Shown here in pieces: positions 1 through 38,828 of a DNA stretch of 57,579 nt; the first letter of the stretch is position 1; the number at the start of each line of letters is the position of its first letter. The stretch is from Eggerthellaceae bacterium (GTDB lineage Bacteria > Actinomycetota > Coriobacteriia > Coriobacteriales > Eggerthellaceae). The stretch covers positions 1 through 57,579 of the forward strand of contig JAFWJU010000004.1 of assembly GCA_017511465.1 (NCBI GenBank), written 5' to 3'. Position numbers and translations under genes: made by a program. The notes under the pieces are model-generated. The model made no database searches. It was not told the DNA's origin and worked only from the letters and a program-made list of their open reading frames with translations.

Positions 1-70
1 CATCGTAAGAAACCACCCCTTCATTTGCAAGGCATTTGCCGCATAAACCCATTACACGGCACAATATGTA

Positions 71-265
71 CTACAAATGCAACATTTCGCGCTCTGAATG
101 GTTCAGCAAATTGCTATCGAACAGGATACGCTCAAATACTGCTGGGCGCATAGCGACGAGGCATTCGTCTTCGCCATCGAACACGACGAGCGGTTCGTCT
201 GCAGCGTGCGCAACCGCGACGAGCTCTTCCATACCTGACAAAGCGCGCAATTCGACAAATCCCAT
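71..265 (-). CDS. small Phd/YefM-like protein (possible orphan antitoxin)
   Basis: A 64-residue protein. The start at 265 is chosen because an AAGGAAGG ribosome site lies just upstream; a longer reading from 367 has no such site. The pattern ELRAL..(A)DEPLVVFDGEDECLVAM..(E)R(I)L resembles the N-terminal DNA-binding half of Phd/YefM antitoxins, which repress their own operon and neutralise a toxin. It lacks a long C-terminal toxin-binding tail, and no toxin gene is visible; one could lie beyond the left edge. The family link is an inference from pattern only. It could equally be an unrelated small protein. Confidence 0.5.
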   Translation of the reverse strand: MGFVELRALSGMEELVAVAHAADEPLVVFDGEDECLVAMRPAVFERILFDSNLLNHSEREMLHL

Positions 266-36780: not shown

Positions 36781-37341
36781 ATGGCAATTTCCACTGCAGA
36801 TTTCAAGAACGGCATGTGCATCGAATTTAACGGCAAGCTGTGGACCATCGTCGAGTTCCAGCACGTGAAGCCCGGCAAGGGCGGCGCGTTTGTCCGCACG
36901 AAGCTGCGCGACGTCCGCACAGGCCGCATCGTCGACAACACGTTCAACGCCGGCACGAAGTTCGATTCCGTCCGCATGGAAACCCGCAAGATGCAGTTCC
37001 TGTACAACGACGGCACCGATTTCCATTTCATGGACACCAACACCTACGAGCAAGAAGCCCTCGGCGAGGAAATCGTGGGCGACGTGGCCAAGTGGCTGAA
37101 GGAAAACGACGAGGTGTCACTGCAGTACGCAGGCACCGAGCTCATCGGCATCGAGCCGGCCATGTTCGTCGAGCTTGAGGTCGCCGAGACCGAGCCCGGC
37201 TTCAAGGGCGACACGGTGCAGGGTTCCACCAAGCCCGCCACGCTCGAGACCGGCGCCGTGGTGAATGTTCCCATGTACGTCGAAGTCGGCGACGTGCTGC
37301 AGATCGACACGCGTGACGGCCGCTTCGTCAAGCGCATGTAA
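36781..37341 (+). CDS. efp: translation elongation factor P
   Basis: A 186-residue three-domain protein that relieves ribosome stalling at polyproline. The KOW-like N-domain carries the tip loop KPGKGGAFVRTK, with lysine at the usual modification position (VKPGKGGAF). OB domains follow, and the C-terminus ends FVKRM. Length is exact for the family. It is divergent from the aroQ::pepP gene, whereas in Bacillus the homologues are all on one strand. A terminator follows at 37364. Confidence 0.96.
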   Translation: MAISTADFKNGMCIEFNGKLWTIVEFQHVKPGKGGAFVRTKLRDVRTGRIVDNTFNAGTKFDSVRMETRKMQFLYNDGTDFHFMDTNTYEQEALGEEIVGDVAKWLKENDEVSLQYAGTELIGIEPAMFVELEVAETEPGFKGDTVQGSTKPATLETGAVVNVPMYVEVGDVLQIDTRDGRFVKRM

Positions 37342-37363
37342 GCAAGCATTGCAATTGCAAGCG

Positions 37364-37392
37364 AAGGGCCCTTCGGGGCCCTTTCCTTTTTC
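37364..37392 (+). terminator. intrinsic terminator after efp
   Basis: AAGGGCC and GGCCCTT pair around a CTTCGG loop, followed by TCCTTTTTC. Confidence 0.75.
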
Positions 37393-37399
37393 TCGAAGG

Positions 37400-37656
37400 G
37401 CGTGCACTTGGTAGGGTTTTCAACCACCACCCTTCACGAGGGCCCGTATTCCATGTGCTCAAACGTTCACTAAATAGAGTTTTCTGCCAATTGGAATATT
37501 TCGTGGCAGAGATTCCTGAAAAATGCACGCTATCCCGCCTCACTGAGCGTGCATTTGATGGGGTTTTAAGCCATATCTCCCTTGGTAAGCGTGCACTTGA
37601 AAGAGCTTTCAGCCACGAAATATTCGAATTGGCAGAAAAGCCCGTGAAGTGCCCAC
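37400..37656. repeat. phased array of six 27-nt imperfect repeats between efp and aroB
   Basis: Units at 37400-37426 (+), 37463-37489 (+), 37504-37530 (-), 37547-37573 (+), 37589-37615 (+) and 37630-37656 (-). Each begins with a GCGTGCACTT-like box and ends with a TTTTC..CCA-like box. The last five start 41, 43, 42 and 41 bp apart, about four helical turns, with 14-16 nt gaps. Two convergent pairs have complementary spacers, giving a 28-bp inverted repeat with one mismatch (37480-37507 and 37612-37639). No ORF of note lies here. Confidence 0.8.
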
Positions 37657-37678
37657 CCGAACCGCATCGAGCGAATCG

Positions 37679-38779
37679 CTAGCGGCTCAGCGCCTTTACG
37701 ATGACCTCGTCTGCAACGGGAACGATTTCCCAAGTCGCGATATCGCGGGCCAGCACGAAGCGAACTTCCCCGCCTCGGGCTTTCTTGTCGCGCTTCATGG
37801 CGGCCAGCAGGTCTTCGGGCGCCGCTTCGAAGGCGAGCGGGGGCAAGCCCAGCATGTCGAGCAAATCGCCTTGCGCATCCGCGAATTCGCCGATTGCATC
37901 AGCGCCGCCGAGCATGTCGGCGGCAAGGCGCACGGCGAAGCGCATGCCCTCGGCCACGGCAGCGCCATGGCTGAACGTGCCGTATCCCGCACACGCCTCG
38001 ATAGCGTGTCCAAGCGTATGGCCATAGTTCAGACATTCGCGCACACCCGCGCTTTCGGTTTTGTCTTGGGCGACAACGCCTGCCTTGAACACGACGCAGC
38101 GCTGAATTGCCTCCATCGCCACTGTCGCATCGCGCGCCGCCATGGCTTCGGCGTTATCGAGCAGCCAGAAGAAGAAATCGTCGGAATCGATGACGGCCGA
38201 CTTCGCAACCTCGGCGCAACCGCAACGCCATTCGCGTTCGGGCAGCGTGGCCAACGTGTCGGTGTCGGCGCAGACGAACGAGGGCTGGTAGAACGTGCCG
38301 ACCAGGTTTTTCCCCTCGGGCAAGTTGACGGCTGTCTTGCCGCCAACCGATGAGTCGACCATGGCCAGCAACGTCGTGGGAACCTGCACCACGGGCACGC
38401 CGCGCATGTACGTCGATGCGACGAATCCCGCCAGATCGCCAACGACGCCGCCGCCGAGCGCAACCACGAGGCAATCGCGGCCGAATGACAACTGCGCCAT
38501 GGCGCTCCAGATTTCAGCAGCAACCTCAACGGCTTTCGTGTCCTCGCCAGCTGGCACCGTGATGTCGGCGGACTTGAATCCCGCGTTTGCAAGGGACGCC
38601 TTCACGTGCGCCAAATACAGTGGGCCGACATTCGAGTCAGTTATGACCAGCACATCGCGCGACGCGGAGAAACGGTCGATTTCGCGCAGATTCTGACCCA
38701 GCTTGGCGATGACGCCGCTGCCTATGCGCACCGCGTAGTCTTGCTCTCCCGGCAATTGAACGATAACTTTCGTTGCCAT
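37679..38779 (-). CDS. aroB: 3-dehydroquinate synthase
   Basis: A 366-residue NAD- and metal-dependent enzyme of the second shikimate step (DAHP to 3-dehydroquinate). NAD-binding ALGGGVVGDLAGFVASTYMRG, VPTTLLAMVDSSVGGKTAVN and the metal/histidine region NYGHTLGHAIE are all present. The start at 38779 follows AAAGGAA. Last of the aroC-aroK-aroB series on this strand; 49 bp separates it from aroK. Confidence 0.95.
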   Translation of the reverse strand: MATKVIVQLPGEQDYAVRIGSGVIAKLGQNLREIDRFSASRDVLVITDSNVGPLYLAHVKASLANAGFKSADITVPAGEDTKAVEVAAEIWSAMAQLSFGRDCLVVALGGGVVGDLAGFVASTYMRGVPVVQVPTTLLAMVDSSVGGKTAVNLPEGKNLVGTFYQPSFVCADTDTLATLPEREWRCGCAEVAKSAVIDSDDFFFWLLDNAEAMAARDATVAMEAIQRCVVFKAGVVAQDKTESAGVRECLNYGHTLGHAIEACAGYGTFSHGAAVAEGMRFAVRLAADMLGGADAIGEFADAQGDLLDMLGLPPLAFEAAPEDLLAAMKRDKKARGGEVRFVLARDIATWEIVPVADEVIVKALSR

Positions 38780-38828
38780 GCGTTTCCTTTCGCGCAATGT
38801 GGCAGGCACCTGGCGCCTGTCGCAAGCG

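Follow-up and report, generated by a model that had tools for sequence, protein, structure and literature searches.

Phased repeat arrays dispersed through an Eggerthellaceae genome probably form a two-part system with a fast-evolving nuclease-like gene

What has placed six regularly spaced copies of one repeat in the gap between two convergent genes of an Eggerthellaceae gut bacterium, and do these copies stand alone in the genome? The window analysed here, a stretch of 57,579 nt, is part of a draft genome (G000: 129 contigs, 90% complete, 3% contamination). The whole array (37399..37657, 259 bp, assigned to neither strand) has six phased sites with orientations ++-++- and lies between the terminator of efp and the end of aroB. 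The upstream neighbour efp (elongation factor P; 36781..37341, + strand) is strongly conserved in sister genomes; an intrinsic-terminator-like hairpin follows it at about 37363-37391, just ahead of site 1. The convergent neighbour aroB (3-dehydroquinate synthase; 37679..38809, - strand) has its 3′ end ~20 bp from site 6, and its ortholog in G004 is 89% identical. Both genes, recognized from their sequence, are presumably what these names say. In sister species other palindromic repeats are found after the efp terminator (L051, L057 and L054), e.g. GGACGCTGCGCTTC... in G004, GTTGAACGTTATCCC... in G003 and GGCACGCTGCTCCC... in G005; repeats seem to be readily accommodated at this spot.

The six units lie where a preliminary description of this DNA had put them, each one base wider (28 bp), and its count of four direct and two inverted units is correct. 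With a position weight matrix trained on all arrays, the sites score as follows: site 1, GGCGTGCACTTGGTAGGGTTTTCAACCA (37399..37426, +), 34.3 bits; site 2, AACGTTCACTAAATAGAGTTTTCTGCCA (37462..37489, +), 27.1 bits; site 3, AGCGTGCATTTTTCAGGAATCTCTGCCA read on the reverse strand (37504..37531, -), 29.0 bits; site 4, AGCGTGCATTTGATGGGGTTTTAAGCCA (37546..37573, +), 32.2 bits; site 5, AGCGTGCACTTGAAAGAGCTTTCAGCCA (37588..37615, +), 26.4 bits; and site 6, GGTGGGCACTTCACGGGCTTTTCTGCCA read on the reverse strand (37630..37657, -), 27.8 bits. Start-to-start spacings are 63, 42, 42, 42 and 42 bp, in agreement with the ~42-bp phasing described earlier for sites 2-6. The first unit had been taken to lie 1.5 periods out. 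This was an error: site 2 starts 63 bp, or six helical turns (6 × 10.5), past site 1, and site 1 is therefore on the same helix face as the others. The same matrix gives no further match >10 bits in the 57.6-kb window. Since the six units reach 26-34 bits and 20 dinucleotide shuffles reach ≤16.0, chance is excluded.

The array is not a CRISPR, as had been concluded earlier: near-identical direct repeats and unique spacers of about 25-40 nt would be needed, whereas here identity to the first unit is only 68-82%, the units alternate in orientation and spacers are mostly 14 nt. In the window the two convergent pairs have spacers that are nearly complementary to each other (ATTGGAATATTTCG versus CGAAATATTCGAAT), and a 52-nt inverted repeat is found there; the complementarity, reported in the preliminary description, does exist but is peculiar to the window copy, spacers being generally not conserved.

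The array has many companions. In a DNA search of this genome three more arrays with exactly the same layout (++-++-, 63/42/42/42/42) turned up, and the layout of the window array recurs in contigs C12, C75, C6 (406-663) and C76. Genome-wide, 91 matches to the 28-nt unit model resolve into 14 arrays: the window array, four in C6, two in C20 and one each in C122, C76, C49, C52, C81, C75 and C12, that is, ~12 dispersed arrays plus two flanking a gene in C20. Only three of the 91 matches stand alone, and phased clusters far outnumber single copies, as had been anticipated. The longest arrays have up to 13 sites; a '+ - + + -' core is present in most, with outer sites directed inward. Within about 15 kb of C6 (L037, 406-15592) there are four arrays, three of them closely related and carrying extra sites at 53-bp (5-turn) spacing.

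Spacings between neighbouring sites <110 bp apart (n = 86) fall almost entirely into three classes, 41-43 bp (62 cases), 52-53 bp (7) and 63-64 bp (15), corresponding to 4, 5 or 6 turns of the helix, and a period of 10.5-10.6 bp fits best (R = 0.96). In five six-site arrays, unit identity is 70%, whereas spacer identity is 53.2%, against 52.9 ± 1.7% for shuffled spacers. Site sequence and geometry are conserved and the intervening DNA is not, a pattern characteristic of protein binding sites kept in register along the helix. These sequence data (4/5/6-turn spacings, conserved units, random spacers) are best accounted for by the earlier suggestion that many copies of one protein align along one face of the DNA. 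Spacer identity at the shuffled level suggests that the copies are old and maintained by selection, and this is as compatible with a host function as with continuing spread. The arrays neighbour unrelated genes with no consistent gene orientation, and aligned copies share no terminal inverted repeats. An iteron origin or a partition site would sit at one locus beside a rep or par gene; with ~12 arrays dispersed between unrelated genes and a family paired with a nuclease-like gene elsewhere in the genome, the earlier proposals of iterons, a partition site or one cooperative operator find no support.

This gene (C20:8626-9648) is on a different contig from the window array. It is intergenic and free-standing, encodes 341 aa with a Vsr/EDxHD-type nuclease domain and carries long arrays of the window unit on both flanks. 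The C-terminal domain gives weak DUF559/REase_MTES_1575 matches, and such Pfam hits occur in about half of the family. The family profile matches homing endonuclease I-Bth0305I (3r3p) with E = 3.3e-6; a homolog modelled with AlphaFold (mean pLDDT 78) has a C-terminal domain that aligns to 3r3p over 93 residues (Z 10.1) and to E. coli Vsr with Z 7.7. Among 23 family members E209, D253, E264 and D277 are invariant and H271 is nearly so; none of the 23 matches Y1_Tnp in Pfam. The N-terminal half is poorly modelled, the structure being too poor to yield a DNA-binding fold. PADLOC and NCBIfam gave no useful name for the gene. Searches for relatives returned none among viral contigs or phages and, among plasmids, one distant Collinsella replicon. 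Our literature search on DUF559 or Vsr-like proteins with dispersed repeats, whose coverage was partial and took in few subscription journals, found nothing relevant.

The same genome has a second gene of this kind with its own array family. The C45 paralog (L074) is 54% identical to the C20 protein, and its unit, aanCncGCACTTCcggcattTCnGTC, occurs in 11 further dispersed arrays. These have the same five-site '+ - + + -' core, with outer sites at 3 and 6 turns, and cross-matches between C20-family and C45-family units are almost absent. The L074 flank motif initially scored just above controls; it was accepted solely because its unit proved to be dispersed.

The genomes of this genus that served for comparison are of draft quality, and many are MAGs obtained from the rumen or from deer gut. 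The window unit model has no match in 60 relatives, and homologs of the nuclease-like gene were found in 31 of 41 genomes. De novo motif discovery in the flanks of these homologs revealed different phased units: TCGTACATAGACCCCGTATCGCGCCA in G014, CGTACTTAGGGAGATATCCTGCCACG in G003, ATACACATGGACCTAATATCGCTGCA in G007, GGCAAAAACGGCCTCCGTGCTATGG in G008 and CTGTTCCCAACCCCCGAGTTCCTAGC in G005. The flank motifs of these five have log-likelihood ratios (LLR) of 139-238; shuffles give 12-41, and ordinary segments of the window 34-79. Many units share an (A/T)-rich TATC/TTTC and a GCCA-like tail, and some G007 sites overlap as a GCACATGTGC palindrome. Dispersed cognate arrays were present in all three species tested, at ~9 more loci in G003, ~3 in G008 and ~13 in G007. 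The pattern extends to distant members: flank motifs in G002 and G008:C2 are above controls, and a member from another genus (G019) has paired sites at many further loci. No clear flanking array was seen for L065, L075, L077, L078, L070, L071, L073, L079, L082-L084 and L087, where motif discovery gave control-level or non-phased results. For the G011 homolog, the L069 motif proved to be a 35-bp tandem repeat at 2007-2310, unlike the phased units, and was not counted. In some Coriobacteriia the family has expanded to 10-14 copies (10 homologs in G008, 12 in G017 and 14 in G043). Stop codons interrupt the copies in G008:C28 and G005:C152, whose flanking arrays are nonetheless still present.

Comparison between species shows gene and units diverging together. 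The genes of G014, G003 and G007 (L064, L066 and L067) occupy one syntenic locus with flanks ~81-92% identical at the nucleotide level; the genes are ~68% identical, the proteins 61-69%, and units and layout differ between the species. Four dispersed G003 arrays are at chromosomal sites of G007 arrays (both flanks align for one and one flank for the other three). These same-site arrays have alignment scores of 3.5-8.5, against ~3.5 for shuffled sequences, and arrays within each of the two species average 73 and 97; each same-site array keeps its own species' unit and layout. Either the arrays were overwritten by current-version copies or the same sites were hit repeatedly.

Empty sites were found as well. 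Where G000 has the 2.42-kb C20 array-gene-array block, G007 has 23 bp of intergenic DNA instead; the block is missing from G004 too. Three array sites are likewise empty in one or two relatives: that between efp and aroB (G004), the C52 site (G007) and the C76 site (G006 and G009). Conservation of the efp-aroB array in close relatives, on which the preliminary description had set store, did not materialize: G004, the only sister sharing the gene order, does not have it. The idea of a decayed mobile array held up in part. Matching sites without an array in relatives support a mobile origin; decay is contradicted by the conserved sites and geometry. Neither a target-site duplication nor a precise junction was found at the arrays. 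Beside the C76 array, a tRNA-Thr(tgt) segment (L040, 1948-2022) is inverted relative to neighbouring genes in three sister species (L152, L153 and L162), and in G006 and G009 the tRNA-Thr(tgt) gap reads as having no array.

We consider it probable (about 70%) that the window array is a dispersed non-coding copy belonging to a two-part system, a fast-evolving nuclease-like gene with its cognate arrays, that resembles RAYT/REPIN in the way it works. The DNA comparisons establish a gene-plus-arrays system with strict gene-unit pairing: arrays, phasing, conserved units amid random spacers, the pairing itself, one family per paralog, co-divergence, empty sites and arrays that share a site in two species but not their units are all directly visible in them. 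From the same comparisons we infer that the C20 protein would bind the array and cut DNA, and that cutting would drive copying or homogenisation. One part would be the vertically persisting, fast-evolving C20 gene for a protein with a Vsr/EDxHD-type nuclease domain; the other would be the ~12 intergenic arrays, its presumed binding sites. Several protein copies could bind 28-bp sites on one helix face, 4, 5 or 6 turns apart, and assemble in an orderly way. Arrays would then be spread into new intergenic sites by the nuclease domain or by the break that it makes. Older arrays might be overwritten by the current version, so that units and layout would change genome-wide in step with the protein. 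More tentatively, and with rather less than even confidence, we propose that a homing-type nuclease rewrites the genome-wide set of phased arrays with each species' current unit, gene and sites evolving in concert, a system convergent with RAYT/REPIN and mechanistically new. The results suggest a repeat-spreading or repeat-maintaining system of a kind previously undescribed. Weighing against the two-part reading are the family members with no clear flanking array, and same-site arrays could reflect repeated hot-spot insertion instead of overwriting. The preliminary observation is confirmed as real and was, if anything, understated.

The main rival, given how well the sites are conserved and that species have some positions in common, is a host function in chromosome organisation or gene regulation: phased sites would serve a domesticated, perhaps non-cutting, family member, with selection retaining them and dispersal being rare and incidental. 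Conserved units, spacing and orientation amid random spacers speak for such a function, as do the four arrays at common chromosomal sites in G003 and G007 and the two families with the same core layout in one genome. But the nuclease-domain residues stay conserved, the arrays lie between unrelated genes of inconsistent orientation, and both arrays and gene are missing at matching sites in relatives. Parallel families per genome and fast gene evolution better fit a selfish or conflict system, and we regard a host function as unlikely.

We give very little credence to the possibility that the arrays are MITE-like miniature elements spread by an unrelated transposase, the nuclease gene being a passenger between two copies. 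In its favour, non-coding copies are dispersed, sites are empty in relatives, and the genome does contain one Y1 transposase gene. This RAYT-like Y1_Tnp gene (C129:6006-6338, L179; a 300-aa frame) belongs to a separate repeat system, with its own palindrome (TGTCCCCAATTGG/CCAATTGGGGACA type) on both sides and no array sites nearby. These palindromes, together with the lack of array units around the gene and of shared terminal inverted repeats in aligned copies, speak against MITE-like spread, as do the nuclease-family homologs repeatedly flanked by their own unit families. A function in RNA, with the arrays transcribed into long hairpins that act as BIME/REP-like terminators or mRNA stabilisers, is harder still to credit. 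Both strands of the window array fold better than shuffles (z -5.9 and -6.2), but the inverted sites account for this strength; the copies have no spacer sequence in common, and spacing in helical turns would be needless for RNA. No Rfam family reaches threshold; one sub-threshold sRNA match, over the efp terminator, was discarded.

We know of no bacterial system other than RAYT/REPIN in which a single chromosomal gene maintains a population of intergenic repeats dispersed through the genome. A second case, with an unrelated nuclease at its core, would mean that such a lifestyle has more than one origin. Since the site 'code' differs from species to species and from paralog to paralog, the family offers many natural protein-site pairs for the study of DNA recognition, and arrays with different codes at the same site provide a direct test of a genome-wide site set changing together.

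Among known families, DUF559/REase_MTES_1575 is related through the weak C-terminal hits described above, but most of the nuclease-like protein falls outside the models; we know of no repeat association for DUF559/REase_MTES_1575 proteins. BIMEs and other bacterial interspersed repeats also have regularly spaced intergenic units in both orientations; the arrays differ from them by a fixed orientation code (the +-++- core), whole-turn spacing, random spacers and another cognate gene. The EDxHD homing endonuclease I-Bth0305I (Vsr-like), which as a dimer reads an unusually long DNA target (review PMC3943268), is the closest solved fold for the C-terminal domain, and the acidic/His residues are conserved. 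In contrast to it, the C20 gene is free-standing and array-flanked, not placed in an intron or intein or inserted in a target gene; the N-terminal part is different, and there are many dispersed non-coding arrays.

The closest parallel is with REP-associated tyrosine transposases (RAYTs) and their REP and REPIN repeats, for which we relied on PMC2817692 and PMC3116915. Flanking repeats, gene-repeat co-evolution and fast gene evolution at fixed loci have been described there (PMC2817692). In both systems the gene is flanked by cognate repeats that are also dispersed between genes, as with C20; repeats are gene-specific, with several families per genome; and gene and repeats co-diverge, the gene changing more quickly than its neighbours while holding a fixed locus, as at L064/L066/L067. 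Two features that define the RAYT family are absent, however. A Vsr/EDxHD nuclease domain stands here in place of HUH/Y1, and directional non-palindromic 25-28-bp units, in helical register and in either orientation, in place of short palindromes. Copy number is ~12 and not above 100. Finally, the REPs of orthologous RAYTs differ by few point mutations, whereas the units at the syntenic locus described here are almost completely different.
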